This document shows, piece after piece, positions 31,607 to 56,682 of a stretch of DNA of 56,682 nucleotides. Made by a program: the position numbers and the translations under genes. The notes beneath the pieces were generated by a model. It worked only from the letters and a program-made list of their open reading frames with translations, was not told the origin of the DNA and made no database searches. Each line of letters begins with the position of its first letter. Position 1 is the first letter of the stretch. Source of the stretch: a virus; the IMG/VR virus record IMGVR_UViG_3300028780_000007, positions 1 to 56,682 of that record; one strand, written 5' to 3'.

Positions 31607-31682
31607 GCCAGCGTAGTTCAACGGTAAGAACGCTTCTCTCATAAGGAAGAAATGCACGGTCCAATTCCGGCCGCTGGTACCA
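31607..31682 (+). tRNA. tRNA-Met or -Ile2 (CAT)
   Basis: Acceptor GCCAGCG/CGCTGGT, D-arm GTTC..GAAC, anticodon arm CTTCT-CTCATAA-GGAAG (CAT), CCA encoded. The T-stem pairs poorly and the T-loop is TCCAATT, so it may be divergent or inactive. CAT could also be the tilS-type Ile anticodon. Confidence 0.7.
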
Positions 31683-31701
31683 CTAACCTCGAAAGGACAC
31701 T

Positions 31702-32061
31702 ATGAAAGCTGAACAGGTTGCAAGGGTTTGCCATGAGGCCAATCGGGCCTACTGTGAGGCGATCGGCGATAACTCGCAGGTACGGTGGGAAGATGCTCCG
31801 ACGTGGCAACGCCAGTCGGCCATCACTGGCGTTGAGTTCGTTTTAAAGTCGCTGAGAGAATCAAAAACACTTCCGAGCCCGAGCATGTCGCACGAAAGTT
31901 GGTTGCGGGAGAAGACGAAGGATGGATGGAAATACGGGCCAGTGAAGGACGTCGAGAAGAAAGAGCATCCGTGTTTTGTTTCTTACGATCAATTGCCGCC
32001 GCAGCAGCGCGCGAAAGATTTTCTGTTTCTGGCGGTCGTGGAAGCGTTGTACAATTTCTGA
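31702..32061 (+). CDS. RyR-domain phage protein
   Basis: 119 aa. ARVCHEANRAYCEAIGDNSQVRWEDAPTWQRQSAITGVEF, then SHESWLREKTKDGWKYGPVKDVEKKEHPCFVSYDQLP and a KDFLFLAVVEAL end are the RyR-domain landmarks (small helical domain, also used in T4-like phage proteins). Known members bind nucleotide-like ligands in a few cases; role here unknown. Lies inside the tRNA array. Confidence 0.75.
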   Translation: MKAEQVARVCHEANRAYCEAIGDNSQVRWEDAPTWQRQSAITGVEFVLKSLRESKTLPSPSMSHESWLREKTKDGWKYGPVKDVEKKEHPCFVSYDQLPPQQRAKDFLFLAVVEALYNF

Positions 32062-32062
32062 C

Positions 32063-32139
32063 GCGGACATTGAGCTACGGTGCGCTCGCATCTCTCATAA
32101 GGATGGCCTTATCTGGTTCAACTCCAGAGTCCGCAACCA
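32063..32139 (+). tRNA. tRNA-Met (CAT), second copy
   Basis: Anticodon arm CATCT-CTCATAA-GGATG, T-arm TCTGG-TTCAACT-CCAGA, CCA encoded. Acceptor pairs 6 of 7. Distinct from the 31607 copy, so one may be the initiator and one the elongator or Ile2 type. Confidence 0.75.
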
Positions 32140-32141
32140 AC

Positions 32142-32215
32142 TGGGAAGTCGGCCAAAGGTAGGCCGCTGGGCCTTGGACTCAGCTATCCACGTTCGAGTC
32201 GTGGCTTCCCAGCCA
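32142..32215 (+). tRNA. tRNA-Gln (TTG), C33
   Basis: Acceptor TGGGAAG/CTTCCCA, D-stem GGCC/GGCC, anticodon arm CTGGG-CCTTGGA-CTCAG, CCA encoded. The anticodon loop has C at position 33 instead of the near-universal U. Confidence 0.75.
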
Positions 32216-32222
32216 AATTTTT

Positions 32223-32296
32223 GCGCAGTTAGGTCAGTGGTAGACCGCCCGCCTCCAAATCGGGAAACGGAAGTTCGATCCTTTCGCTGCGCGCCA
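32223..32296 (+). tRNA. tRNA-Trp (CCA)
   Basis: Anticodon arm CCCGC-CTCCAAA-TCGGG (U33 present, CCA anticodon), acceptor GCGCAG/CTGCGC, CCA encoded. Confidence 0.8.
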
Positions 32297-32297
32297 C

Positions 32298-32387
32298 GGA
32301 GAAATGCTCGAGAGGCTGAAGAGGTCCGACTGCTACTCGGACGTGCTGTAAAAGGCACCGTTGGTTCGAATCCAACTTTCTCCGCCA
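32298..32387 (+). tRNA. tRNA-Ser (GCT)
   Basis: Anticodon arm TCCGA-CTGCTAC-TCGGA, long variable arm (class II), acceptor GGAGAAA pairing with TTTCTCC, CCA encoded. A second Ser tRNA (TGA) follows at 34446. Confidence 0.85.
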
Positions 32388-32391
32388 GTTC

Positions 32392-32467
32392 GGTCCCGTA
32401 GCTCAATTGGAAAGAGTTCCAGATTACGAATCTGGCGATCGCGGTTCGAATCCGTGCGGGACCGCCA
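32392..32467 (+). tRNA. tRNA-Arg (ACG)
   Basis: Acceptor GGTCCCG/CGGGACC, anticodon arm CCAGA-TTACGAA-TCTGG, T-loop TTCGAAT, CCA encoded. One of four Arg isoacceptors. Confidence 0.85.
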
Positions 32468-32472
32468 AGTTT

Positions 32473-32560
32473 GGAGCAATGGCACAGCGGCAACTGCCCC
32501 GGACTGTAAATCCGGTGTCCCTTCGGGACTACGAAGGTTCGAGTCCTTCTTGCTCCACCA
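32473..32560 (+). tRNA. tRNA-Tyr (GTA)
   Basis: Class II form with anticodon arm CCGGA-CTGTAAA-TCCGG, variable stem GTCCC/GGGAC, CCA encoded. Confidence 0.85.
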
Positions 32561-32565
32561 TTTTC

Positions 32566-32641
32566 GGTTCCGTCGTCCAATTGCACAGGACACTACCCTC
32601 CGAAGGTAAAAATTCCGGTTGGAATCCGGACGGGACCGCCA
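32566..32641 (+). tRNA. tRNA-Arg (CCG)
   Basis: Acceptor GGTTCCG/CGGGACC, anticodon arm with loop CTCCGAA, CCA encoded. One stem end pair is a mismatch. Confidence 0.75.
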
Positions 32642-32649
32642 AATAACTA

Positions 32650-32678
32650 TTGCAAGCCTGAAGTCTTTCCTGTAAAAC
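32650..32678 (+). promoter_or_regulatory. Possible promoter, reversed-core neighbour
   Basis: TTGCAA (32650-32655), 17-bp spacer, TAAAAC (32673-32678), 10 bp before tRNA-Arg(CCT). AAAACAGCAAGCG, the reverse of the family core with one change, begins at the -10 box and ends just before the tRNA. Weak by itself; the shared core makes it credible. Confidence 0.4.
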
Positions 32679-32687
32679 AGCAAGCGT

Positions 32688-32762
32688 GCTCTCGTGGCCG
32701 AATGGACTAGGCGCTCGAGTCCTAATCGAGTAACGCGAGTTCGAATCTCGCCGAGAGCTCCA
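32688..32762 (+). tRNA. tRNA-Arg (CCT)
   Basis: Anticodon arm CTCGA-GTCCTAA-TCGAG, acceptor GCTCTCG/CGAGAGC, T-loop TTCGAAT, CCA encoded. Confidence 0.85.
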
Positions 32763-32763
32763 T

Positions 32764-32840
32764 GCGAGCGTGGTGCAACTGGTAGACACGGTGACCCCAA
32801 AAGTCATTTTTTGCGAGTTCGAATCTCGCCGCTCGCACCA
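32764..32840 (+). tRNA. tRNA-Leu (CAA), C33, short variable arm
   Basis: Leu-like D-arm (GTGGTGCAACTGGTAGACAC), anticodon arm GTGAC-CCCAAAA-GTCAT, T-arm GCGAG-TTCGAAT-CTCGC, CCA encoded. Position 33 is C and the variable region is only about five nt, unlike ordinary class II Leu tRNAs. Confidence 0.7.
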
Positions 32841-32854
32841 ATATTGGAGGGGTG

Positions 32855-32995
32855 ATGGGAACTACTTGTAAGCACGGAACGGACAATATGTTTACGTGTC
32901 CTCATTGCCGAAAAGAATTTAAGGTTTCCGAAGCGATCAGGGAGCCGAGAAAAGAAGAGAAGTCGATGGAAGAGCAGCAACGAGAAGTTGAGTGA
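32855..32995 (+). CDS. Small zinc-finger protein inside the tRNA array
   Basis: 46 aa; GGAGGGGTG upstream. C-x-H then C-x2-H-C (CKHGTDNMFTCPHCRKEF) and a charged helical tail. No family recognised. Confidence 0.6.
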   Translation: MGTTCKHGTDNMFTCPHCRKEFKVSEAIREPRKEEKSMEEQQREVE

Positions 32996-32999
32996 CATT

Positions 33000-33082
33000 G
33001 CGCGAGTGGTGGAATGCATACACATCAGCCTTAGAAGCTGACGCCTTCGGGATTGGGGGTTCGACTCCCTCCTCGCGCACCA
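33000..33082 (+). tRNA. tRNA-Leu (TAG)
   Basis: Class II with variable arm CGCCTTCGGG, anticodon arm TCAGC-CTTAGAA-GCTGA, acceptor GCGCGAG/CTCGCGC, CCA encoded. Confidence 0.85.
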
Positions 33083-33092
33083 AATTTAGAAT

Positions 33093-33169
33093 GCGCCACT
33101 ATCCCAACTGGAAGAGGACGTGGACTTAAAATCCACTAGATCGGAGTTCGAATCTCCGGTGGCGCACCA
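33093..33169 (+). tRNA. tRNA with TAA anticodon (Leu), class I shape
   Basis: Acceptor GCGCCAC/GTGGCGC, anticodon arm GTGGA-CTTAAAA-TCCAC, T-arm CGGAG-TTCGAAT-CTCCG, CCA encoded. TAA predicts Leu, but the variable region is short as in class I tRNAs, so its charging identity is less certain. Confidence 0.75.
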
Positions 33170-33179
33170 AAATCGTGCC

Positions 33180-33431
33180 ATGAAATCAGCGTGCCCAAAT
33201 TGCTTAACTCCGAGCGATCTCCCGGTAAACATACGGCCGGATTGGTTCGTTCTCTGCTTTTCCTGCGCGTTCATTGGGGTTCTCGCGGCGGATATGAGCG
33301 TGCGAGAGGCAACCGATAGGGATTTCGCCGAGGCGACCGAGTACGCTAGGGGCTGGATGTATCGCAAACAGAACCTCGTGTTGATAAATATTTACAGAAA
33401 AAGGTTTGCACGGCACGCGGACATGAATTAA
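33180..33431 (+). CDS. Small zinc-ribbon protein inside the tRNA array
   Basis: 83 aa. C-x2-C (SACPNCLTPS) and C-x2-C (LCFSCAFIG) flank a short hydrophobic stretch; basic C-terminus. No family recognised. Confidence 0.6.
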   Translation: MKSACPNCLTPSDLPVNIRPDWFVLCFSCAFIGVLAADMSVREATDRDFAEATEYARGWMYRKQNLVLINIYRKRFARHADMN

Positions 33432-33439
33432 ATTTCTTT

Positions 33440-33517
33440 GGGGCTGTGCGGTAAGGGACATCCGGCCCGTCTTCTAAGCGGGATAATTTGAGAGTTCGAA
33501 TCTCTCCAGCCCCACCA
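33440..33517 (+). tRNA. tRNA-Arg (TCT)
   Basis: Anticodon arm CCCGT-CTTCTAA-GCGGG, acceptor GGGGCTG/CAGCCCC, T-loop TTCGAAT, CCA encoded. Confidence 0.85.
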
Positions 33518-33519
33518 GT

Positions 33520-33594
33520 GGCGCGGTAGCCAAGTGGGAAGGTTGGGGCCTGCAAAGTCCCGATGAGCGTGTTCGATTCACGCCCGCGCCTCCA
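33520..33594 (+). tRNA. tRNA-Cys (GCA)
   Basis: Anticodon arm GGGGC-CTGCAAA-GTCCC, acceptor GGCGCGG/CCGCGCC, CCA encoded. Confidence 0.85.
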
Positions 33595-33618
33595 AGATTC
33601 GTAAGGGAGGAAAAAGTA

Positions 33619-33819
33619 ATGTTTTTGACTCCTGTAGTTACAGTGCTTGAAAAGATTGCCGTGTCGATCAACAGGCTTACAACTGCTGTCGATACGAGAG
33701 GAGAACAGATTTCTAATGTTCTCGGTCAAATCTTGAAGGCACTTCAGAAGCAACCACAAGTACCTGGGGAGGCGGTTTCCCTGAAACTCACCCTCGGTAA
33801 AGCAGTGCAACAGAAGTAA
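33619..33819 (+). CDS. Small helical phage protein
   Basis: 66 aa, AAGGGAGG upstream. Predicted helical: VVTVLEKIAVSINRLTTAVDTRGEQISNVLGQILKALQ, compatible with a small coiled coil. Unknown function. Confidence 0.6.
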   Translation: MFLTPVVTVLEKIAVSINRLTTAVDTRGEQISNVLGQILKALQKQPQVPGEAVSLKLTLGKAVQQK

Positions 33820-33840
33820 AATTCACGGAGGAAAAACGAA

Positions 33841-34221
33841 ATGGCAAACCCACAGATTGGAGATACCCAGCAGGCGCCTTATTCTGTAACCGGTTTGGAC
33901 GCGGACGGACAGCCGGCGCAGCTTGAACCAGGTGATGTGGTAACTGTCACGTCTTCGGCCCCAGCATCGCTTTCGGTTGTTCCCGACGCAACGCCGGCTC
34001 CGGGCTCGCTCGCTTCCGGTCAGTTGGTTGGCGGAACGACGCTTGCGGTTGGAGTGACGATCACGGCGGTCATCACGCACACGGACGGCACTTCGGCAAC
34101 GGCGACGGATACGATTGACGTCGTTTCCGGTGAGGCTGCAACGTTGGCAATCGGGCTCGGCGCACCTGTGTCGCAGACGCAGCCACCGGCGCCGGCTTCG
34201 GCTCGTCAGGCTGGTCGGTAA
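33841..34221 (+). CDS. Ig-like-fold phage protein
   Basis: 126 aa. Repeated beta pattern with DADGQPAQLEPGDVVTVTSSAP and VGVTITAVITHTDGTSATATDTIDVV, like bacterial Ig (Big) domains used as decoration on phage capsids and tails. No signal peptide. Probably a virion surface protein despite lying in the tRNA region. Confidence 0.6.
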   Translation: MANPQIGDTQQAPYSVTGLDADGQPAQLEPGDVVTVTSSAPASLSVVPDATPAPGSLASGQLVGGTTLAVGVTITAVITHTDGTSATATDTIDVVSGEAATLAIGLGAPVSQTQPPAPASARQAGR

Positions 34222-34242
34222 CATCGTTTCGTAGTTTGGGTT

Positions 34243-34345
34243 GGGGTACGCGAAGGGCAAGCCGTGTAGACGGCGCGTACCCCGGCCATCATTCAAGTTT
34301 GTTTTAATAGGCCGATCCTTGTTAAAGGAAACGGCCTATAATTTT
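34243..34345 (+). ncRNA. Structured RNA segment, two long hairpins
   Basis: First hairpin: 10-bp stem GGGGTACGCG (34243-34252)/CGCGTACCCC (34274-34283) with an inner CCGT-GTAG-ACGG hairpin. Second: ATAGGCCG (34307-34314)/CGGCCTAT (34332-34339) topped by TCCTT-GTTA-AAGGA, then ATAATTTTAAT. It ends seven bp before the next tRNA. Could be a processing or termination element, or an independent RNA. Confidence 0.6.
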
Positions 34346-34351
34346 AATATG

Positions 34352-34443
34352 GGTCGCCAGCACTGGGTGCGGGTTCGGCTTATACCCGAGCGAGATTCCC
34401 GGATTGGGGAGACGGCACGGATCGTAACCGTGGGCGACCACCA
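34352..34443 (+). tRNA. Unusual tRNA-like gene, isotype unresolved
   Basis: Perfect 7-bp acceptor GGTCGCC/GGCGACC, discriminator A, encoded CCA, and T-arm CACGG-ATCGTAA-CCGTG (same odd T-loop as tRNA-Thr(TGT) at 37013). Between them the D-arm is compact, and the anticodon arm can be drawn as TTCGG-CTTATAC-CCGAG (anticodon TAT, Ile) with a 25-nt extra arm, or as GGGTT-CGGCTTA-TACCC (GCT). The isotype cannot be decided by eye. Confidence 0.5.
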
Positions 34444-34445
34444 TC

Positions 34446-34533
34446 GGAAGGCACTGCTGCAAGGGCGGCAACTGGCCCTGAAAGCCAGGGCGTCTCCAAC
34501 GGGACGGGGGTTCGAATCCTCTGCCTTCCGCCA
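34446..34533 (+). tRNA. tRNA-Ser (TGA), C33
   Basis: Class II with anticodon arm CTGGC-CCTGAAA-GCCAG; position 33 is C. Acceptor GGAAGGC pairs with GCCTTCC, T-loop TTCGAAT, CCA encoded. Confidence 0.8.
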
Positions 34534-34543
34534 AATTTCATTT

Positions 34544-34557
34544 GTCCAGATATGGAC
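34544..34557. promoter_or_regulatory. 14-bp palindromic operator-like site, copy 10
   Basis: GTCCAGATATGGAC followed by GAAT, in the 28-bp gap between tRNA-Ser(TGA) and tRNA-Ile(GAT). Its place inside a tRNA transcript argues for a function other than, or beyond, promoter repression. Confidence 0.75.
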
Positions 34558-34561
34558 GAAT

Positions 34562-34635
34562 GGTGGCGTAGCTCAGTGGCAGAGCTCGCGGTCGATAACC
34601 GCGCGACGGGTGTTCGATTCACCACGTCACCACCA
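34562..34635 (+). tRNA. tRNA-Ile (GAT), C33
   Basis: Anticodon arm CGCGG-TCGATAA-CCGCG with C33; acceptor GGTGGCG/CGTCACC; CCA encoded. Confidence 0.8.
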
Positions 34636-34637
34636 AC

Positions 34638-34711
34638 GCTGACTTCGTACAATGGAAGTACTCTCGTTTGAAGCACGAGCAACGTCCGTTCGATTCGGAC
34701 AGTCAGCGCCA
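34638..34711 (+). tRNA. tRNA-Phe (GAA)
   Basis: Anticodon arm CTCGT-TTGAAGC-ACGAG, acceptor GCTGACT/AGTCAGC, CCA encoded. Confidence 0.85.
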
Positions 34712-34726
34712 CTCTTAGGAGGAGCA

Positions 34727-35098
34727 ATGAAAAAGCCGTATGAGTATGCTGACGAATTGGTGACCACCGGTGGAAAGGATGCTCTTGAGCACCTTGAAAC
34801 GAATATCAAAACTCACACGACTCGTTTTCGCTTGTACACTGCAATTCACAGCTATTCAATTTCAATGATTCTCCCGTCGCCAGAGAAGCCAAACGGTTAT
34901 ATGGGTTGTATTGCATCTTGTCGCGCTCCGTATCCCGGAGAGACGCACACGCGAGGGAATGATTTGCCGGATGGGCCGTACAGCGATGAAACGTGGCACG
35001 CAATCCTGGCTGCCATTGTGAGGTATGAGATTTTGCCGCTCTATCGGAGTTCTGGGTTTATTCCAGTGCGAAACACGGGTACTGAAGCGAATGCTTGA
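34727..35098 (+). CDS. Phage protein of unknown function
   Basis: 123 aa, AGGAGGAGC upstream. Contains HLETNIKTHTTRFRLYTAIHSYSISMILPSPEKPNGYMGCIASCR and DGPYSDETWHAILAAIVRYEIL. Its stop overlaps the -35 box of the promoter at 35095. No family recognised. Confidence 0.6.
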   Translation: MKKPYEYADELVTTGGKDALEHLETNIKTHTTRFRLYTAIHSYSISMILPSPEKPNGYMGCIASCRAPYPGETHTRGNDLPDGPYSDETWHAILAAIVRYEILPLYRSSGFIPVRNTGTEANA

Positions 35099-35123
35099 CG
35101 GTCGCTCGCTGTTTAGATACCAT
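35095..35123 (+). promoter_or_regulatory. Promoter, conserved-spacer class (tRNA cluster)
   Basis: TTGACG (35095-35100), 17-bp spacer with CGCTCGCTGTTT, TACCAT (35118-35123). RNA would start near 35130, two bases before tRNA-Val(TAC), so this promoter is dedicated to tRNA expression. Confidence 0.7.
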
Positions 35124-35131
35124 TCATTTCG

Positions 35132-35202
35132 CCGGCCTTGTCGTCTGGTGACGGCCCTCCCCTTACAAGGGAGTTAAGCAGGATTCGATTTCCTGGGTCG
35201 GT
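35132..35202 (+). tRNA. tRNA-Val (TAC)
   Basis: Acceptor CCGGCCT/GGGTCGG, anticodon arm CTCCC-CTTACAA-GGGAG, T-arm CAGGA-TTCGATT-TCCTG. CCA is not encoded. First RNA after the promoter. Confidence 0.8.
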
Positions 35203-35204
35203 AC

Positions 35205-35277
35205 GCCGGCATAGCTTAGTGACAAAGCATCGCATCGGTAATGCGACGACCTGAGTTTGATTCTCAGTGCTGGCTCC
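35205..35277 (+). tRNA. tRNA-Thr (GGT), C33
   Basis: Acceptor GCCGGCA/TGCTGGC, anticodon arm TCGCA-TCGGTAA-TGCGA with C33, T-arm CTGAG-TTTGATT-CTCAG. The 3' end is TCCG rather than a full CCA. Confidence 0.75.
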
Positions 35278-35351
35278 GGGAGTGTAATTCAGTGGAAGAA
35301 GCCCTCTCTCTTAAAGAGGAAACGAGTGTTCGATTCACTCCACTCCCACCA
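35278..35351 (+). tRNA. tRNA-Lys (CTT)
   Basis: Anticodon arm CCTCT-CTCTTAA-AGAGG, acceptor GGGAGTG/CACTCCC, CCA encoded. Directly abuts the preceding tRNA. Confidence 0.85.
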
Positions 35352-35358
35352 AGTTTAT

Positions 35359-35434
35359 TGGGCAGTAGCATAATTGGTATTGCGTTCCGCTGTTACCGGA
35401 AAGGATGACCGTTCGAATCGGTCCTGCCCAGCCA
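35359..35434 (+). tRNA. tRNA-Asn (GTT)
   Basis: Anticodon arm TTCCG-CTGTTAC-CGGAA, acceptor TGGGCAG/CTGCCCA, CCA encoded. Confidence 0.85.
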
Positions 35435-35463
35435 ATTTTGTTGATTGTGATCGAGGAGGAAAT

Positions 35464-35835
35464 ATGAAATCGAAATACAAGTCGTTGCTCGTGTTCTTCG
35501 GCTTCTTGCTGTTCGCAACGGTTTTGATGGCGCAGACAGCGCCATCGGCGCCGGCCGCTCCAACGCAGTCGATGGGCATTGCGCAGACTGTCATCGTTCT
35601 TGCTGGGGTGGTTGCCTCGATACTGCAAGGCGTGAAGCAACTGGTCCCGCAGATTAACGGGAAGGTTGCCATAGCCATCAGCATCGCCGCGTCGCTTGCA
35701 TTGGCTTATGCCGCCGCGCAGCCTGGGCAGGTGATCAGCATTCAATTTCTTATCACCACGCTCGGCACGGCGTTAGGCTCTAACGGCATTTACGATTTCT
35801 TGAAGAAACCAAAAGCGCCAGTACCAGCGGCGTAA
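35464..35835 (+). CDS. Putative holin-like membrane protein
   Basis: 123 aa; GAGGAGG upstream. Signal-like helix at the N-terminus (residues 7-22), then two more hydrophobic segments (about 40-58 and 68-84) and a short tail containing TALGSNGIYDFLKK, an ending common in phage holins. The arrangement fits pore formation at lysis, but no endolysin is seen in this window, so the label is tentative. Confidence 0.55.
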   Translation: MKSKYKSLLVFFGFLLFATVLMAQTAPSAPAAPTQSMGIAQTVIVLAGVVASILQGVKQLVPQINGKVAIAISIAASLALAYAAAQPGQVISIQFLITTLGTALGSNGIYDFLKKPKAPVPAA

Positions 35836-35861
35836 CCGGAGGTAGTCATGAGAGGTGACCG

Positions 35862-36047
35862 ATGATTTTGCTTATCATTGTGCTGATTCTGGTGTTCGGT
35901 GTGGGCGGCGGTTATTACGGCAATAGCCGCTGGGGAGCGCAGGGCGGGTTCGGGATGGGGCTGGGCACGATCCTGATAATCCTTTTGATTCTGTATCTGC
36001 TAGGTGCCTTTGGCGGCGGTGGCTTCGGGCACGGCAGATTGTTCTAA
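35862..36047 (+). CDS. Small glycine-rich membrane protein (DUF3309-like)
   Basis: 61 aa: a hydrophobic N-terminus (MILLIIVLILVFGVGGGYYG), a GGFGMGLGTILIILLILYLLGAF helix, and a glycine-rich end. The 'RWG..GG.G.GL..ILLIL.LL' pattern is that of DUF3309 small membrane proteins. Often in bacterial genomes; the copy next to the holin-like gene could be lysis related. Confidence 0.55.
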   Translation: MILLIIVLILVFGVGGGYYGNSRWGAQGGFGMGLGTILIILLILYLLGAFGGGGFGHGRLF

Positions 36048-36053
36048 GAGTGG

Positions 36054-36178
36054 CGCGTTCCGCGTGTTGACCCGAGCGCGGATTCACCGCGGGCTTAACA
36101 GCCCACATCGGGTCCAGAACGGGAAGCAGCTACCAAAAGTGCTGCGATGCGGCTAATACCGCCTAGCGGCGCGTCAAC
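36054..36178 (+). ncRNA. Structured RNA segment with cloverleaf-like fold
   Basis: A 7-bp stem GACCCGA (36069-36075)/TCGGGTC (36108-36114) encloses CGCGG-ATTCA-CCGCG (36077-36091) and GGGCT-TAAC-AGCCC (36091-36104). Two more hairpins follow: GCAGC (36126-36130)/GCTGC (36141-36145) and GCGG-CTAATA-CCGC (36149-36162). GTTGAC (36066)/GTCAAC (36173) can close the whole segment. It has no credible open frame and ends right at tRNA-Lys(TTT). Confidence 0.6.
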
Positions 36179-36252
36179 GGGCGATTAATTTAGTGGGAAA
36201 AGATCGGGCTTTTACCCCGAGAACGAAGGTTCGATTCCTTCATCGCCCACCA
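36179..36252 (+). tRNA. tRNA-Lys (TTT)
   Basis: Anticodon arm TCGGG-CTTTTAC-CCCGA, acceptor GGGCGAT/ATCGCCC, CCA encoded. Confidence 0.85.
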
Positions 36253-36253
36253 A

Positions 36254-36327
36254 GCGGGTGTCGTATAGTGGAATTACCCCTGTCTTCCAAACAGGTGACG
36301 AGTGTTCGATTCACTCCATCCGCTCCA
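36254..36327 (+). tRNA. tRNA-Gly (TCC)
   Basis: Anticodon arm CCTGT-CTTCCAA-ACAGG, acceptor GCGGGTG/CATCCGC, CCA encoded. Confidence 0.85.
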
Positions 36328-36331
36328 TTTC

Positions 36332-36405
36332 GCCGATGTCGTCCAGTGGGAAGACGTCGATCTCGTACATCGAAGACGACTGTTCGATTCAGTCCATCGG
36401 CTCCA
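36332..36405 (+). tRNA. tRNA-Thr (CGT)
   Basis: Anticodon arm TCGAT-CTCGTAC-ATCGA, acceptor GCCGATG/CATCGGC, CCA encoded. One of three Thr isoacceptors. Confidence 0.85.
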
Positions 36406-36423
36406 ATTTCAGAAAGGATCGCC

Positions 36424-36834
36424 ATGACCGAAGCTCAAATCGAAGATGTCGGCGAAGCTTTGAACCGGCGCGTTCCGAAAAAATATCACGAGGGAGCTCC
36501 TCATCCGCGTCCAATTGGCAGGCCGTTTTTCACGGGTTTCAAAACCAATGTTCCCGCACAGAATTTGTCGGAGGAAGAAAACGCGAAGTTGGTGGCGGCC
36601 GTAGAAAAGCCCGGCGATTTAGGGTATGTGGCGCAATTTGTTTTTTACGCAAAGATTGCGGGGGGGCCGTTCTTTTACGTGAATCTTCCTAATATGAAGG
36701 GCGGCAGGTACGAGATCGGCGAAAGCTTCGACATCGGCGAGGAGCGAGTGCATTGCGATATCTCGCAGCGGGATTTAGAGTCGATGTTGGAAGCTGGCTA
36801 CAAAAAGATTTGTGAGATTTCTGGGGTTGTCTGA
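36424..36834 (+). CDS. Phage protein of unknown function
   Basis: 136 aa. Helical N-terminus, then PFFTGFKTNVPAQNLSEEE and a beta region GGPFFYVNLPNMKGGRYEIGESFDIGEERVHC. Its last 12 bp overlap the tRNA-Glu(CTC) 5' end, so translation and RNA processing compete. No family recognised. Confidence 0.6.
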   Translation: MTEAQIEDVGEALNRRVPKKYHEGAPHPRPIGRPFFTGFKTNVPAQNLSEEENAKLVAAVEKPGDLGYVAQFVFYAKIAGGPFFYVNLPNMKGGRYEIGESFDIGEERVHCDISQRDLESMLEAGYKKICEISGVV

Positions 36835-36896
36835 CAGTGGAAGTCAATCTCCCTCTCGAGGAGAAAACGCGGGTTCGATTCCCGCCAACCCTACCA
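36823..36896 (+). tRNA. tRNA-Glu (CTC)
   Basis: Anticodon arm TCTCC-CTCTCGA-GGAGA, acceptor GGGGTTG/CAACCCT, T-loop TTCGATT, CCA encoded. Starts 12 bp before the stop of the preceding gene. Confidence 0.85.
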
Positions 36897-36899
36897 AGT

Positions 36900-37001
36900 T
36901 CGCGGCGAGGGGGATACCGTTTGAATATTTTTGGTGAATAAAACGGCCGCTTGGCGGATGTTACGGTCCAAGCGCGTACCGCCCTACTTAGCTCGCCGCG
37001 A
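36900..37001 (+). ncRNA. Structured RNA with 10-bp closing stem and two arms
   Basis: TCGCGGCGAG (36900-36909) pairs with CTCGCCGCGA (36992-37001). Inside are CCGTTT (36917-36922)/AAACGG (36941-36946) and CGCTTGG (36948-36954)/CCAAGCG (36968-36974), a three-way junction. No credible open frame. Lies between tRNA-Glu(CTC) and tRNA-Thr(TGT). Confidence 0.6.
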
Positions 37002-37012
37002 TTTAATTTCAC

Positions 37013-37087
37013 GCCGCCATAGCTCAATTGGTAGAGCCTCTCACTTGTAACGAGAAGACGAGGGATCGTAACCTTCTGGCGGCTCCA
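37013..37087 (+). tRNA. tRNA-Thr (TGT)
   Basis: Anticodon arm TCTCA-CTTGTAA-CGAGA, acceptor GCCGCCA/TGGCGGC, CCA encoded. T-loop is ATCGTAA instead of TTCGANT, shared with the odd tRNA at 34352. Confidence 0.75.
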
Positions 37088-37103
37088 GTTTTGAGGGGTT
37101 TAT

Positions 37104-37562
37104 ATGGCAGACGTAATTGAAATGCAGCCGAAACAAGAACGGCATTCGCTTGAGAAGAAACGGAATGACGGTTACGTGATCGTTGAGGAGGTCGTCGATG
37201 GTAAGACGACCGGCAAACGATTCCATTGCGAGCACAATGTCTTAGAAGTCGATGAGCGCCGCGGGGTGGTGATATGCAAGACCTGTGGTGACGAAATGTC
37301 TCCGCTTGAAGCTCTAAAGCTTCTCTATCGCACGATTTGGTGGGAAGAGAACACGCGCGAGCGGCAAATTGAGTACGATCAAAAGCGCGTTTCGAAGGTT
37401 CAAGTCGCGGCGCTTATTTGTCTTTACGAGGCCGGTGTGACGCCAGAGAAGTACGCCGAGCGGTGGAACAAAGAACACGCGCGCCGCGCTACGCTGGAAA
37501 TTGCGAAGGTTGCGGAGAAGCAAGTGGCGATTGACGGCGGGTCAGAAAAGCCAGTAGCCTAA
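37104..37562 (+). CDS. Zinc-binding phage protein
   Basis: 152 aa. RFHCEHNVLEVDERRGVVICKTCGDEMSPLEAL gives C-x-H ... C-x2-C around residues 40-65, followed by a long helix. Pattern common to phage hypotheticals in virion or tRNA regions. Ends just before the promoter at 37569. Confidence 0.65.
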   Translation: MADVIEMQPKQERHSLEKKRNDGYVIVEEVVDGKTTGKRFHCEHNVLEVDERRGVVICKTCGDEMSPLEALKLLYRTIWWEENTRERQIEYDQKRVSKVQVAALICLYEAGVTPEKYAERWNKEHARRATLEIAKVAEKQVAIDGGSEKPVA

Positions 37563-37568
37563 AAAAAG

Positions 37569-37597
37569 TTGCAAAACAGCAAGCGCTGTGCAATTCT
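37569..37597 (+). promoter_or_regulatory. Promoter, reversed-core class (tRNA cluster)
   Basis: TTGCAA (37569-37574), spacer AACAGCAAGCGCTGTGC, AATTCT (37592-37597). RNA would start near 37603, one base before tRNA-Glu(TTC). The spacer has the reversed core AACAGC(A/G)AGCG as at 94. Confidence 0.55.
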
Positions 37598-37603
37598 CTT
37601 TTC

Positions 37604-37680
37604 GGGGTTATCGTCTAGACGGCCCAGGATCCAAGATTTTCACTCTTGAGACGCCGGTTCGAATCCGGCTAACCCTGCCA
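37604..37680 (+). tRNA. tRNA-Glu (TTC)
   Basis: Anticodon arm CAAGA-TTTTCAC-TCTTG, acceptor GGGGTTA/TAACCCT, T-loop TTCGAAT, CCA encoded. Confidence 0.85.
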
Positions 37681-37682
37681 AT

Positions 37683-37757
37683 GGGGGCGTAGTGACAAAG
37701 TGAACACGGCTCGCTTGCACCGAGCAAAAGCCCGTTAGAATCGGGTCGCCTCCACCA
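37683..37757 (+). tRNA. tRNA-Ala (TGC)
   Basis: Anticodon arm GCTCG-CTTGCAC-CGAGC, acceptor GGGGGCG/CGCCTCC, T-loop TTAGAAT, CCA encoded. Confidence 0.8.
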
Positions 37758-37828
37758 AGATCGACGCAGTATTTAGCGTCAACGAGCGAGGTCAAGTGCG
37801 ATGGTCGGGCGCGCACAGGGACCAATTT

Positions 37829-37865
37829 ATCCGCTTCGGCCCGCTAGATTGTAGAAGGGGCGGAT
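37829..37865 (+). promoter_or_regulatory. Hairpin sequestering the ribosome-binding site of 37866
   Basis: ATCCGCTTC (37829-37837) pairs with GAAG...GCGGAT (37854-37865, 3-nt bulge), so the GAAGGGG ribosome-binding site and the base before ATG 37866 are inside the stem. Translation would need unwinding, ligand or coupling. A second hairpin, GACGC/GCGTC (37763-37780), lies upstream in the same 108-bp leader. Confidence 0.5.
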
Positions 37866-38129
37866 ATGACAAATCTGAAGGGAGCTTTGCCGATGCCAGC
37901 GCCAGGATTTCAGGGAATCACGGAACAAAATTTGAAGAACTGGTTTACGTACCACAAGCCCACCGAGGGGCAGAACGAACAGTACCTTGCCATCCGCGAA
38001 GCGGCGCTTATTTTCGCGCGCACGATCGTGGCGAACACGCCAGTGAGCGCGGACCAGTCTTCTGCGATTCGGCATGTTCGTATGGCGACGATGGAAGCGA
38101 ATCAATCGATCGCTTGTGGCGGACACTAA
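37866..38129 (+). CDS. Acb2-like anti-CBASS protein
   Basis: 87 aa, all-helical: TEQNLKNWFTYHKPTEGQNEQYLAIREAALIFARTIVANTPVSADQSSAIRHVRMATMEANQSIACGG. The NWFTYH motif, the A.IF..L..P.S.(D/E).S.AI..V...M..AN..IA end and total length match the Acb2/Tad1 helical hairpin family. Known Acb2 proteins form hexamers that bind cyclic di- and trinucleotides and block CBASS and related immunity. Ribosome-binding site sequestered in a hairpin, so its timing may be controlled. Confidence 0.7.
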   Translation: MTNLKGALPMPAPGFQGITEQNLKNWFTYHKPTEGQNEQYLAIREAALIFARTIVANTPVSADQSSAIRHVRMATMEANQSIACGGH

Positions 38130-38136
38130 AAAGTTC

Positions 38137-38213
38137 GGAGGCGTAGAGGAGTGGCCGTCCTCGGCTCACTGTCTATGAGCAAACCGTGGGTTCGAATCCC
38201 ATCGTCTCCGCCA
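38137..38213 (+). tRNA. tRNA-Asp (GTC)
   Basis: Anticodon arm GCTCA-CTGTCTA-TGAGC, acceptor GGAGGCG/CGTCTCC, CCA encoded. Confidence 0.85.
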
Positions 38214-38215
38214 AT

Positions 38216-38291
38216 GGTAGATGAAGCCAAACGGTGCGGCGCCTGATTGTGGATCAGGTTCTAGTGGGTCCGACTCCCATCTTCTACCCCA
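38216..38291 (+). tRNA. tRNA-His (GTG)
   Basis: Anticodon arm CCTGA-TTGTGGA-TCAGG, extra 5' G (G-1) opposite discriminator C73, the tRNA-His hallmark, CCA encoded. Confidence 0.85.
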
Positions 38292-38297
38292 AGTTTC

Positions 38298-38373
38298 GGC
38301 GGAGTAGGGTAACGGCTATCCCACCTGCTTTGGGAGCAGGGAACTGCGAGTTCGAATCTCGCCTCTGCCACCA
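38298..38373 (+). tRNA. tRNA-Pro (TGG)
   Basis: Anticodon arm CCTGC-TTTGGGA-GCAGG, acceptor GGCGGAG/CTCTGCC, CCA encoded. Confidence 0.85.
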
Positions 38374-38395
38374 ATTTCCACATACCACACAGAGA

Positions 38396-38480
38396 GGGGC
38401 AGGGAGGCGTAAAACCGCGGGCGAGAACCGAGGCGAAAGCCAAAGTACACCTGTTGGGTAGTGCGCGCCTCCCCAGTCCC
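38396..38480 (+). ncRNA. Structured RNA segment
   Basis: GGGAGGCG (38402-38409) pairs with CGCCTCCC (38466-38473), extended outside by GGG/CCC. Inside are a GGC-GAAA-GCC tetraloop hairpin (38432-38441) and weaker CGG/CCG pairing. Between tRNA-Pro(TGG) and tRNA-Pro(CGG). No credible open frame. Confidence 0.5.
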
Positions 38481-38490
38481 GTTTAAGATT

Positions 38491-38565
38491 CGAGGCGTAG
38501 CGAAGAGGAAACGCGCAGCTTTCGGGAAGCTGAGATCGCCAGTTCGAGTCTGGCCGCCTCGACCA
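38491..38565 (+). tRNA. tRNA-Pro (CGG)
   Basis: Anticodon arm CAGCT-TTCGGGA-AGCTG, acceptor CGAGGCG/CGCCTCG, CCA encoded. Confidence 0.85.
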
Positions 38566-38584
38566 AATTGGAGGTTTCGATGTC

Positions 38585-39013
38585 ATGGCTTTTACGCGCA
38601 AAGAAATCCAGCTGAGATATAGACTCAGGCATCCTGGTTATTGGAAGAAAGATGCGGCGCGTGCGGCAAAATGGGCGCGAGACAATCCGGAATGGTTTAA
38701 AAACTATCGAAATACCCATAGAATTAAATTTCGCGAGTGGAGACGTAACAGTAAGATTAAACGAAAATACGGCATCAGTGCGGCTGAATATGGTTCTTTG
38801 TTGAAAGCGCAGAATAATATTTGCGCAGTATGTAAGAAGCCATTTGCAGGTAATCTTCGATGTGGCACCGATCCAGTTCTTGATCATCGGCATGGTGGCA
38901 AGATAAGAGAATTCATCCATCGCAAGTGCAATGTGGCGATTGGGTTTTTGTGTGATGATCCAGTGTTGTGTCGTTTGGCCGCTGAATATCTGGAAAAGCA
39001 CGCTAGCTTTTGA
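38585..39013 (+). CDS. Recombination endonuclease VII-like protein
   Basis: 142 aa. Basic N-terminus, then YGSLLKAQNNICAVCKKPF, LDHRHGGKIREFIHRKCNVAIGFLCDD: the Endonuclease VII motif set (C-x2-C, DH.H..GK.R..(C/H)..CN..IG..DD) of T4 gp49. T4 Endo VII resolves branched DNA during packaging. Fits with recombination genes upstream and terminase downstream. The GGAGG site is about 10 bp from the ATG. Confidence 0.8.
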   Translation: MAFTRKEIQLRYRLRHPGYWKKDAARAAKWARDNPEWFKNYRNTHRIKFREWRRNSKIKRKYGISAAEYGSLLKAQNNICAVCKKPFAGNLRCGTDPVLDHRHGGKIREFIHRKCNVAIGFLCDDPVLCRLAAEYLEKHASF

Positions 39014-39125
39014 TGATTTCATGGGGTATCCCCCAGTCGAGCCAATGCTGTTGCGGTTGTAAAACAAAAAGAACTGACAACAAAATGGAACTACCTCTCG
39101 CGGCCTAACGGCTAGCGAGGCGCTT

Positions 39126-39151
39126 CCCGGTGAGCGAAATCACCGGGTTTT
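39126..39151 (+). terminator. Intrinsic terminator within the tRNA array
   Basis: CCCGGTGA-GCGAAA-TCACCGGG (39126-39147) then TTTT. Preceded by a second hairpin CTCGC GGCC-TAAC-GGCT A GCGAG (39097-39119). Ends the run after the endonuclease VII gene; tRNA-Gln(CTG) follows five bases after the T-run. Confidence 0.7.
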
Positions 39152-39155
39152 CAAT

Positions 39156-39231
39156 TCCGGGGTCGTCTAATTCGACAGGATAATCGCCTCTGAAGCGATC
39201 GATAAAGGTTTGAATCCTTTCCCCGGAGCCA
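39156..39231 (+). tRNA. tRNA-Gln (CTG)
   Basis: Anticodon arm ATCGC-CTCTGAA-GCGAT, acceptor TCCGGGG/CCCCGGA, CCA encoded. Lies after the terminator, so needs its own promoter or read-through. Last tRNA in the array. Confidence 0.85.
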
Positions 39232-42925: not shown

Positions 42926-44961
42926 TGCGCCTTAATCGCAAAGATCCATATCTGGACGATGCGCTCGAATTGCTGGATCGCCATATCGAGAAGGCCAATG
43001 GCGATTTCCGGCTGGCGTATACCTTTCTTACTCCGCACGAATTAGTTTTCATCGACGGCGAGATTGAGAAATGTGTTTCAAACTTCCGCTACTACGCTGA
43101 AAATTACCACGTTATCGCTTCGGAATATGAAGGCCACAAAGTTCTCCATCCTTGGTGGGATAGTCAAGAAATCTTCTATGAAAAAGTTTTCGAGATTCAA
43201 ATTGCAGGGAAACCGGTTCGCATTATCGTTCTGAAAGCGCGTCAGCTTGGCCTGTCCACAATTTGCCAAGCGCTTACTTTCCACAAAACGATTTTCACGC
43301 CTAGTTGTAATACTTTGATCATCGCGCAGGATCCTGGACAAGCCGACTATCTCTTTAGCATGTCTCGTACGGCGTACGAAAGTTTGCCGTGGTGGATGCG
43401 GCCAGAAACCCGTTACGAAGCCAAGTCAAGGTATATGGTCTTCGATCGCAAGGATCCTACTGAGCGCATGATGAGTCCTGGATTGCGATCGCAGATTTTC
43501 GTCGATGCGGCCAACAAAATGACTGGTGCTGCCGTTGGAAAAACTATCCGTGCGGTTCACATGAGCGAGTTGAGTGAATGGGACAATGCCTCGATTTTGA
43601 CCGAGAACCTTTTCCCGACCATGAACGCACCTGATGAATTGGCAATCATGGAGTCTACGGCGCGCGGAACCGTTGGTTTTTGGTACAGGTTTTGGAAGTC
43701 GGCGATGGAGGGAAAGACCGACTGGCAACCAGTTTTCATTGAGTTTTTCCGGGTTAAGAAATATTCGACTTCAATTCCGGCCGGCGAGAAATTTGAGCTT
43801 ACGCCGGAAGAGGTTGCGCTTCGCGGGAAGGTTAAGAAAGAAGCAAACTTTGATTTGGCTGACGAGCAACTCAAGTGGCGTCGAGACAAGATCAACGAGT
43901 TCATTGCGGCTGATGGGGAAGAATGGGGATTCTATCAGGAGTATCCGGGCGCCACATGGCTCGAGGCGTTTCAGGGCAGTGGTTTGTGTGCTTTTGACAA
44001 AAGGAAGCTTCAGACAATGCTCGAGACGCAGTGTTGCCCTCCGATTTTGTTTGGTGAAATTGATTTGGACCGAGAAAAAGACGGAAAGCTTCGGCCTCAC
44101 CTAAAGGCCATGCGCAAGGTTGACAGGAACACGCTTATTCCGCCGCAAGAAAACTACGGATCAAGGCTTCACATCTGGGAGAAACCGATAGCTGGGGAAA
44201 GATATTCTATCGGAGCCGACGTCGCCCAGGGAATTCTGGGTGGCAATTATTCTTGTGCCCAGGTTTTCAAGATCGGCAAAGGAATGAAAAAAGACGAACA
44301 GGTCGCCGAATGGCATGGGTTAATCAACCCAACGCCGTACGCTTCCGTTCTTGCTGGGCTTGGTTTTTATTACAACACCGCTGAAATCGCCGTCGAGTGC
44401 AACAACGACGTTGGCGGAACGACCAACAACCAATTGTTGCGTGTGATCGAATACCCGAATATGTTCCGGTGGAAGCACTACGACAAGATCAAGAATTACT
44501 TCTCCGACTTCATGGGCTGGTACACCAATTCCAAGACTCGCGGTCAGATCATCACAAAGATGCGGGAGAGCATCAGCGACGGGACGATTATAATTCGCAG
44601 CGAGGCTATGATTGAGGAAATGCGGAACTTCGCTAGGGAAGAGGGAGAGCGAAGGTATGAGGGTCAGGGGACCGACGACGACCGTGTAATGTCCGGGATG
44701 ATTTGTATTTTCTGCCCGCACGATATGGATTGGGGCGTGGACAAGACCGAATCGGAGGAAGAGGACGAAGAGACGATCCGGAAAAGGAAGAGAGAGGATT
44801 ACATCAACACCGATTACGCGCCGGCTTTCGAGGGGTCGAGGAAGAAGAACCTTCCGCCAGGGAAAGCACAGTTGCCCAGCGAGCTTGGTTTGCCGACAGA
44901 TATGACCACTTCGCAGATTCGTTCCGATGTGCCCGAAGAAGATCAGTGGAAGCTTCTTTAG
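42925..44961 (+). CDS. terL: Terminase large subunit
   Basis: 678 aa from GTG 42925. ATPase motor: adenine/Walker A region IIVLKARQLGLSTICQ, Walker B-like and coupling motifs around MSELSEWDNASILTENLFP and IMESTARGTVGFW. Nuclease domain: RYSIGADVAQG, GTTNNQLLRV, and DDDRVMSGMICIF with catalytic Asp residues. It drives DNA into the capsid and cuts it. An operator-like site (copy 12) covers codons 7-12. Confidence 0.9.
   Translation: MRLNRKDPYLDDALELLDRHIEKANGDFRLAYTFLTPHELVFIDGEIEKCVSNFRYYAENYHVIASEYEGHKVLHPWWDSQEIFYEKVFEIQIAGKPVRIIVLKARQLGLSTICQALTFHKTIFTPSCNTLIIAQDPGQADYLFSMSRTAYESLPWWMRPETRYEAKSRYMVFDRKDPTERMMSPGLRSQIFVDAANKMTGAAVGKTIRAVHMSELSEWDNASILTENLFPTMNAPDELAIMESTARGTVGFWYRFWKSAMEGKTDWQPVFIEFFRVKKYSTSIPAGEKFELTPEEVALRGKVKKEANFDLADEQLKWRRDKINEFIAADGEEWGFYQEYPGATWLEAFQGSGLCAFDKRKLQTMLETQCCPPILFGEIDLDREKDGKLRPHLKAMRKVDRNTLIPPQENYGSRLHIWEKPIAGERYSIGADVAQGILGGNYSCAQVFKIGKGMKKDEQVAEWHGLINPTPYASVLAGLGFYYNTAEIAVECNNDVGGTTNNQLLRVIEYPNMFRWKHYDKIKNYFSDFMGWYTNSKTRGQIITKMRESISDGTIIIRSEAMIEEMRNFAREEGERRYEGQGTDDDRVMSGMICIFCPHDMDWGVDKTESEEEDEETIRKRKREDYINTDYAPAFEGSRKKNLPPGKAQLPSELGLPTDMTTSQIRSDVPEEDQWKLL
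42944..42957. promoter_or_regulatory. 14-bp palindromic operator-like site, copy 12
   Basis: ATCCATATCTGGAC, one mismatch (A for the first G) from the consensus, at the start of the terL coding sequence, followed by GATG. The weakest copy; retained because of its near-start position as in copies 1 and 4. Confidence 0.5.
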
Positions 44962-55952: not shown

Positions 55953-56682
55953 ATGAAAAAGATCATCGGATTTTTGATTCTGGTCCTCGCTTCTTGCTCG
56001 TCCATATATGGACAAACAAGCGGCGGGGGAGGGGGCGGCCAAGTTGGCGGCGGCAATGTCACGGTGCAAGGAACCGTGACACCGAACGATTGCGCGAAGT
56101 TCGTTTCGCCAAACGTCATTACGGACACTGGGGCGACCTGTAGCGGAGGCGGCGGGGGCAGCGTCACCGTCGTTACTGGCACCACGAACCAAATAGACGT
56201 AGCGACTGGAACGACGACGCCGGTTGTGTCGCTTGACCCGAACATCATCGGCAATTTTACAAACTACACTTCTTCGGGAATGTCTTTCCCTGCCGTCACG
56301 GTGACACCGACAGGAGGCACGCAAGGTTCGGTCAGTTGTACGAGCAATTGCTATATCTATTACGTGGTCGCAACGGATTCTCAAGGGTTGACTCGCACTG
56401 TGTCAGGCTCAACCAGCGCGGGACCGACGACTCTCAGCGGTGCCGCTTACAACACCGTCACCGTGGCGGCGTTCACTGGGGCGGACTCGCCCGTAGGGAC
56501 TTGCACGGTTTACAGGTCACTAGGCCAAAATCCCCCAACGATTCAGGGCAGCATCGGTACAATCGCATCCTGCGCTGCTGGTGGAACCCTTGTAGACACT
56601 GGTTTGACAGCCACCGCTGGCAGTCCTCCGAGTGATTCAAGCGGCGTACTGACTGCGATAGGAGCAATCAACCCTTCGTCGA
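55953..56682 (+). CDS. Lipoprotein-like secreted protein, Gly/Thr-rich (partial)
   Basis: At least 243 aa, runs off the window. N-terminus MKKIIGFLILVLASCSSIYG is a lipoprotein signal (L-A-S-C lipobox, Cys15). Then a glycine-rich run and a beta-rich Thr/Ser/Gly body (VVTGTTNQIDVATGTTTPVVSLDP, SGSTSAGPTTLSGAAYNTVTV) resembling tail-fibre or adhesin repeats. A lipoprotein signal on what looks like a virion fibre is unusual and could instead mean an envelope-located receptor-masking protein. Operator-like copy 15 lies at codons 17-21. Confidence 0.6.
   Translation, partial: MKKIIGFLILVLASCSSIYGQTSGGGGGGQVGGGNVTVQGTVTPNDCAKFVSPNVITDTGATCSGGGGGSVTVVTGTTNQIDVATGTTTPVVSLDPNIIGNFTNYTSSGMSFPAVTVTPTGGTQGSVSCTSNCYIYYVVATDSQGLTRTVSGSTSAGPTTLSGAAYNTVTVAAFTGADSPVGTCTVYRSLGQNPPTIQGSIGTIASCAAGGTLVDTGLTATAGSPPSDSSGVLTAIGAINPSS
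56000..56013. promoter_or_regulatory. 14-bp palindromic operator-like site, copy 15
   Basis: Perfect GTCCATATATGGAC inside the signal-peptide coding region of the last gene, 48 bp after its start. Confidence 0.7.

Follow-up and report, generated by a model that had tools for sequence, protein, structure and literature searches.

What would a phage gain from a set of transfer RNA (tRNA) genes that leaves no amino acid out? The question is raised by IMG/VR record IMGVR_UViG_3300028780_000007, a single viral record whose 56,682 nucleotides constitute the window analyzed here. Between positions 31607 and 39231 it carries an array of 34 tRNA genes in 7.6 kb, all on the plus strand. We favor, with a probability of roughly 0.55, the interpretation that the array is a co-oriented phage tRNA cluster offering one tRNA per sense codon plus an initiator-like tRNA, which would sustain phage protein synthesis once host tRNAs have become depleted or cleaved.

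tRNA gene content and proposed function of the array

The 34 genes consist of 33 ARAGORN calls and a tRNA-His(GUG) that ARAGORN misses and the Rfam model RF00005 recognizes with 43.0 bits; in the remaining 49 kb of the window ARAGORN finds no tRNA genes. A preliminary description of this DNA had likewise counted 34 genes specifying all 20 amino acids, and both figures hold. Its concern that automated prediction might expose many of them as low-scoring or as pseudogenes applies to a minority: 30 of the 34 pass the Rfam gathering threshold (29 of the 33 ARAGORN calls and tRNA-His(GUG)), while four ARAGORN calls do not, namely Ser(UGA) at 34446, Met at 32062, Ile(UAU) at 34352 and Val(UAC) at 35131. 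The serine gene matches the tRNA-Sec model with 42.8 bits (cut-off 47), and even when short segments are scanned permissively, the other three match no Rfam tRNA model significantly. On inspection, the cloverleaves of Met 32062 and Val 35131 are acceptable. Ile(UAU), probably the gene previously listed as unresolved, can be taken as a real but non-canonical tRNA because of the covariation described below.

A second contig from another record (L004/L007) contains the whole array at 99.97–99.98% identity with identical ARAGORN calls, and the array is therefore not an assembly artefact. With more than the 15 tRNA genes and the 2 genes per kb that define a phage tRNA gene cluster, and with TerL, portal and major capsid genes on the same contig, the locus belongs to this category. 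If standard wobble rules apply, the array can read each of the 61 sense codons. Its anticodons are non-redundant, the sole repeat being CAU, which is shared by an elongator-type and an initiator-like tRNA; the latter displays the C1:A72 mismatch that is a hallmark of initiators and is likewise present in one sampled chromosomal initiator tRNA of Acidobacteriota. CCA is encoded in nearly all of the tRNAs.

A capsid search of IMG/VR returned 68 loci, while amongst bacterial genomes the capsid gene matched only two small contigs of metagenome-assembled genomes (MAGs), one from Acidobacteriota and one from Alphaproteobacteria. Relatives with a 58–84% identical capsid protein carry from 0 to about 34 tRNAs each, several of them in large non-redundant arrays; in the large relative records the Rfam model counts 32, 28, 24, 23, 22, 10, 2, 1 or 0. 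The tRNA array is a variable trait within the clade. Six of the arrays were read gene by gene: five (L106, L107, L108, L110, L113) hold 24–32 tRNAs in differing gene orders and without a repeated anticodon, and in the sixth (L114) only CAU is repeated, as in the window. Near-complete, non-redundant tRNA sets are thus found in several members of this group of uncultivated phages.

In the interpretation we favor, the genes would probably be transcribed several at a time and host enzymes would mature the tRNAs, with Val and Thr(GGU) requiring CCA addition or completion, and the charged tRNAs would then replace cleaved or depleted host tRNAs. The likeliest selection would come from tRNA-cleaving anti-phage immunity or from host tRNA loss during infection, and counter-defence or translation autonomy is a plausible role for the array as judged from its gene content. 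Rare codons are served as well as common ones: AUA accounts for 49 of 13,903 codons (0.35%), UUA for 66, CUA for 65 and AGA for 68, and each has a dedicated tRNA. A set that is complete, free of redundancy and extended to rare codons argues for replacing the host pool rather than for codon compensation, a common explanation for phage tRNAs, according to which phage codon use differs from that of the host and translation is limited by tRNA. Although tRNAs for rare codons are present, as compensation would have it, the set is not focused on abundant phage codons, the most-used codons have no duplicated tRNAs and even the scarce AUA has its own; we regard this alternative as unlikely. Of the two options raised in the preliminary description, independence from host tRNAs is therefore a better fit than a codon mismatch, and the anti-nuclease role that it attached to the former stays a plausible one.

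Slightly less likely again is a general boost to translation, in which the array would raise tRNA supply late in infection independently of nucleases or codon bias. The co-oriented, multi-gene array does adjoin the packaging and structural modules, but this explanation predicts duplicates of high-demand tRNAs, of which there are none, and does not predict an isotype-biased loss of U33. This residue is near-universal in tRNAs, and five tRNAs of the window array have C33 instead. Across all arrays examined, C33 occurs in 10 of 19 tRNA-Ile(GAU) genes as against 27 of 542 other tRNAs (p=3e-8) and in 6 of 17 tRNA-Val(UAC) genes (p=4e-4), where both p values ignore shared ancestry; the bias spans unrelated phages and an Acidobacteriota array. 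A bias toward these two isotypes is consistent with selection acting on the anticodon loop, and altered anticodon loops have been suggested to make phage tRNAs resistant to nucleases (PMC10264068).

Several observations weigh against the host-pool replacement that we favor. Many close relatives are tRNA-poor, with 2 tRNAs in a 108-kb record (G027), 1 in a 79-kb record (G036) and 0 in another of 79 kb (G044), so that the clade can evidently do without the array. Three of the 34 tRNAs score outside the Rfam tRNA models. While 10.3% of the tRNAs in arrays of the clade have lost U33, versus 0 of 37 sampled Acidobacteriota chromosomal tRNAs, the loss over all arrays (39 of 561) does not differ significantly from this small chromosomal sample (p=0.16); for U33 loss, significance is limited to the isotype bias inside arrays. 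Finally, E. coli did not use the reviewed soil UAU allo-tRNAs for translation (PMC7609411); if they are the same RNAs as the tRNA(UAU) of the array, this would speak against its function. Least likely of all is that homing endonucleases and recombination build up and shuffle the arrays, from which the phage would gain little: an HNH gene lies within the array, gene orders differ among relatives, the array is dispensable and a similar one sits in an Acidobacteriota chromosome, but the near-complete non-redundant sets of several relatives and the stem-preserving compensatory changes in tRNA(UAU) imply selection for function.

Structure, occurrence and decoding of tRNA(UAU)

The proposed fold of tRNA(UAU) has canonical 7/5 acceptor and T stems. 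A 7-bp acceptor stem with A73 is joined through a single A8 to a mini D-arm (GCAC..GUGC) and a GG linker; the anticodon stem has up to 6 bp, its loop-closing pair being mismatched in 6 of 11 copies, and the anticodon loop CUUAUA(A/C/G) is followed by GAGA, a long variable arm with a stem capped by GAUU, and then (A/G)ACGG and the 5-bp T stem. Of the pair cells in the 11 aligned copies, 96.6% hold a standard pair; both sides have changed in 20 of 27 pairs, and covariation amounts to 0.70 compared to 0.07–0.14 for slid partners. The structure was drawn by eye from the very sequences scored; the compensatory changes are nonetheless extensive. A canonical class I tRNA-Ile, with a two-nt acceptor/D linker, a 5-bp anticodon stem and a variable loop of 4–5 nt, does not describe this RNA.

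A scan of IMG/VR for the core pattern found 13 viral contigs, including one that belongs to this phage species, and a scan with free anticodon returned the identical 13, every one with UAU. Contigs carrying the gene include sizes of 71–360 kb, and the loci examined lie within or adjoin tRNA arrays. With a covariance model, members score 87–108 bits, whereas ordinary tRNAs do not exceed about 31 bits. Divergent UAU copies reach 54.6 bits in L110 and 53.5 bits in a 634-kb Acidobacteriota contig (genome G106, contig C21), whose genome is the only one of 396 from Acidobacteriota with a match. The latter copy is part of a 20-tRNA array (L140-L142) at about 303–309 kb of the contig, with chromosomal flanks, C33 in 4 of the 20 tRNAs and adjoining open reading frames (ORFs) that by eye are HNH endonuclease-like and Ro60/TROVE-like. 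The model matched none of 398 genomes from the phylum of the capsid-matching Alphaproteobacteria MAG, in a search without positive control, nor T5, the Aeromonas phage 65 tRNA region, KVP40, CcrColossus, GAP32, Karimac or Ankus; blastn against phage and plasmid collections gave nothing, a negative that carries little weight for an RNA so short and divergent. In two arrays a CAU tRNA with an unusual D-arm is located directly upstream of the UAU tRNA (L132:172-245, L113:6799-6867).

At 39 positions in relatives that carry the UAU tRNA, AUA aligns with I (0.41), V (0.15) and L (0.13), resembling AUU. Because AUA codons thus stand at isoleucine positions as AUU codons do, isoleucine is the likeliest identity of tRNA(UAU), with AUA remaining Ile. 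It would be a structurally distinct isoleucine-type tRNA that reads AUA without lysidine modification of a CAU anticodon. Recoding, with AUA read as Ser or Leu, is ruled out by the codon-position analysis. An allo-tRNA with a 12-bp acceptor branch (8/4 or 9/3) is rejected, as all 7 acceptor and 4 of 5 T-stem pairs are double-changed in the 7/5 fold and A8 would face G or C in the 8/4 form; an allo-tRNA of the SerRS type requires G73, and A73 is present in 12 of 12 aligned copies. Neither tRNA-Pyl (CUA anticodon, 3-nt variable loop, G73) nor tRNA-Sec (UCA anticodon, 13-bp acceptor branch) corresponds to these features.

Tentatively, and with somewhat less than even confidence, we propose that the UAU tRNA represents an undescribed structural family of Ile-tRNAs, confined to mobile tRNA arrays (those of phages and of one Acidobacteriota chromosome), decoding AUA without TilS and escaping standard tRNA models. 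On this proposal, the 'allo-tRNA(UAU)' sequences of peat and forest soil, irregular and apparently non-functional, and the tRNA polycistrons reported from there would be phage tRNA arrays.

Layout of the array and its surroundings

The features of the array are collected in Table 1. Four gaps are candidate structured RNAs (fold z -3.6 to -3.9), and sigma-70 promoters across the array do not exceed the level in shuffled sequence.

Table 1. Features of the tRNA array, with positions in the window (aa, amino acids; z, fold z score).
Feature	Position	Strand	Support
tRNA-Met(CAU), elongator-type	31607..31682	+	ARAGORN; Rfam 53.0 bits
ORF 119 aa, phrog_5154/18865 family; homologues in phages carry an RyR-domain annotation	31702..32061	+	
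tRNA-Met(CAU), initiator-like: C1:A72, without GGG/CCC anticodon-stem pairs	32062..32139	+	ARAGORN; no Rfam tRNA match
tRNA-Gln(UUG), C33	32142..32215	+	ARAGORN, Rfam
tRNA-Trp(CCA)	32223..32296	+	ARAGORN, Rfam
tRNA-Ser(GCU)	32298..32387	+	ARAGORN, Rfam
tRNA-Arg(ACG)	32392..32467	+	ARAGORN, Rfam
tRNA-Tyr(GUA)	32473..32560	+	ARAGORN, Rfam
tRNA-Arg(CCG)	32566..32641	+	ARAGORN, Rfam
tRNA-Arg(CCU)	32688..32762	+	ARAGORN, Rfam
tRNA-Leu(CAA), short 5-nt variable loop, C33	32764..32840	+	ARAGORN, Rfam
tRNA-Leu(UAG), long variable arm	33000..33082	+	ARAGORN, Rfam
tRNA-Leu(UAA), short 5-nt variable loop	33093..33169	+	ARAGORN, Rfam
tRNA-Arg(UCU)	33440..33517	+	ARAGORN, Rfam
tRNA-Cys(GCA)	33520..33594	+	ARAGORN, Rfam
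ORF 126 aa, no PHROG match	33841..34221	+	
Candidate structured RNA	34222..34290	+	z -3.9
tRNA(UAU), non-canonical: A8 linker, mini D-arm, anticodon stem of at most 6 bp, long variable arm, A73, CCA	34352..34443	+	ARAGORN; covariation; covariance model
tRNA-Ser(UGA), drawn with 8/4 acceptor/T stems, C33	34446..34533	+	ARAGORN
tRNA-Ile(GAU), C33	34562..34635	+	ARAGORN, Rfam
tRNA-Phe(GAA)	34638..34711	+	ARAGORN, Rfam
ORF 123 aa, no PHROG match	34727..35098	+	
tRNA-Val(UAC), CCA not encoded	35131..35204	+	ARAGORN; no Rfam tRNA match
tRNA-Thr(GGU), C33	35205..35277	+	ARAGORN, Rfam
tRNA-Lys(CUU)	35278..35351	+	ARAGORN, Rfam
tRNA-Asn(GUU)	35359..35434	+	ARAGORN, Rfam
ORF 123 aa, hydrophobic, putatively membrane/holin-like	35464..35835	+	composition
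ORF 61 aa, hydrophobic	35862..36047	+	
Candidate structured RNA	36049..36176	+	z -3.7
tRNA-Lys(UUU)	36179..36252	+	ARAGORN, Rfam
tRNA-Gly(UCC)	36254..36327	+	ARAGORN, Rfam
tRNA-Thr(CGU)	36332..36405	+	ARAGORN, Rfam
ORF 136 aa (ATG, AAGGA upstream), 12-nt overlap with tRNA-Glu(CUC)	36424..36834	+	sequence
tRNA-Glu(CUC)	36823..36896	+	ARAGORN, Rfam
tRNA-Thr(UGU), T-loop AUCGUAA	37013..37087	+	ARAGORN, Rfam
ORF 152 aa, phrog_4865 (unknown function)	37104..37562	+	
tRNA-Glu(UUC)	37604..37680	+	ARAGORN, Rfam
tRNA-Ala(UGC)	37683..37757	+	ARAGORN, Rfam
tRNA-Asp(GUC)	38137..38213	+	ARAGORN, Rfam
tRNA-His(GUG)	38217..38288	+	Rfam 43.0 bits; missed by ARAGORN
tRNA-Pro(UGG)	38298..38373	+	ARAGORN, Rfam
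Candidate structured RNA	38385..38482	+	z -3.6
tRNA-Pro(CGG)	38491..38565	+	ARAGORN, Rfam
HNH endonuclease, recombination endonuclease VII family	38585..39013	+	PF02945 1.3e-12; phrog_2914
Candidate structured RNA, terminator-like hairpin at 39126-39147	39060..39150	+	z -3.9
tRNA-Gln(CUG)	39156..39231	+	ARAGORN, Rfam

Some of the tRNAs have further unusual features. The short 5-nt variable loops of two of the three window Leu tRNAs are not specific to the clade, since they are present in KVP40 and Karimac, and CcrColossus also has long-arm class I tRNAs. In Ser(UGA) an A8:U pair is possible, giving an 8/4 fold, and 7/5 can also be drawn; a pairable position 8 (A:U or G:C) recurs in tRNA-Ser(UGA) of unrelated arrays, namely T5 (L118), L107, L110 and L141, as G-C in the Acidobacteriota array. 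Elsewhere, a relative contains a long-arm tRNA that ARAGORN does not call, with the loop CCCUAAA and hence a CUA (amber suppressor) anticodon (L110:13313-13408, L109:3084-3179), and a contig of 164,879 bp (L128) combines a large tRNA array with a permuted transfer-messenger RNA (71 bits) and weak Y RNA-like matches.

The window also encodes a P22-like portal, large terminase, major capsid, primase-helicase, RecA and a HerA-like ATPase, and it has no near match in the phage collection. An overlapping contig, 98% identical over the overlap, starts matching at 38842 and runs about 28 kb beyond the right end; the genome is therefore at least 84.5 kb in size and the window a fragment of it. Two conspecific contigs cease to match at 56122, which suggests that the right end (56122-56682) holds a variable gene or that the assembly switches there. 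A 14-bp palindrome, GTCCA[TG]AT[AC]TGGAC, occurs in 15 copies in the window versus 0.31 expected (at 141, 4498, 8493, 16693, 19455, 22486, 25843, 26091, 31240, 34544, 39243, 48628, 52644 and 56000, and with a mismatch at 42944), several of them directly upstream of ORFs. Six further copies are found in the overlapping conspecific contig (L037, L038) and none in the sampled relatives; the element resembles an operator or stoperator scattered along the genome.

Comparison with known tRNA clusters and unusual tRNAs

Phage tRNA gene clusters comprise 15–37 clustered tRNAs in genomes of 72–617 kb, and 8 of 228 clusters include all 20 isotypes (Morgado and Vicente 2019, PMC6409571). The array described here resembles them in its 34 tRNAs, 20 isotypes and genome of at least 84.5 kb, and differs in belonging to an uncultivated lineage that lacks near matches among the collected phages, in a predicted coverage of 61 of 61 codons with only CAU repeated, and in its non-canonical tRNA(UAU). 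As phage clusters with a full set of isotypes are already known, what is new is this array as a further member, which strengthens the case for phage self-sufficiency in tRNA, and the tRNA(UAU).

In the T5 tRNA region (AY543070), tRNAs likewise lie amid small ORFs, HNH endonucleases and stable RNAs (candidates in the window), and an initiator tRNA is annotated. T5 differs in that a CAU tRNA-Ile2 is annotated for AUA, where the window has UAU, and the two regions show no sequence relation. Several T5 tRNAs together defeat the tRNA-cleaving PARIS immunity (PMC12409363); counter-defence, demonstrated for T5, would be a plausible role of the window array.

With tRNA-Pyl, tRNA(UAU) shares the single nucleotide between acceptor and D stem, the small D-arm and an anticodon stem of at most 6 bp, but it has UAU instead of CUA, a variable arm of more than 20 nt instead of 3 nt, and A73 instead of G73. 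The allo-tRNA(UAU) of soil metagenomes and Edaphobacter, described by Mukai 2017 as reviewed in PMC7609411, is alike in its UAU anticodon, long variable arm, lengthened anticodon stem and link to Acidobacteriota. Compared by description only, tRNA(UAU) differs from it in a 7/5 arrangement indicated by covariation instead of 8/4 or 9/3, in A73 instead of G73 and in the one-nt acceptor/D linker. For an unusual AUA-reading tRNA missed by standard annotation, the analysis supplies a structure backed by covariation and a model with which to search. It also offers a possible phage origin for the puzzling soil 'allo-tRNA(UAU)' sequences and an opening for studies of how AUA can be decoded without lysidine.

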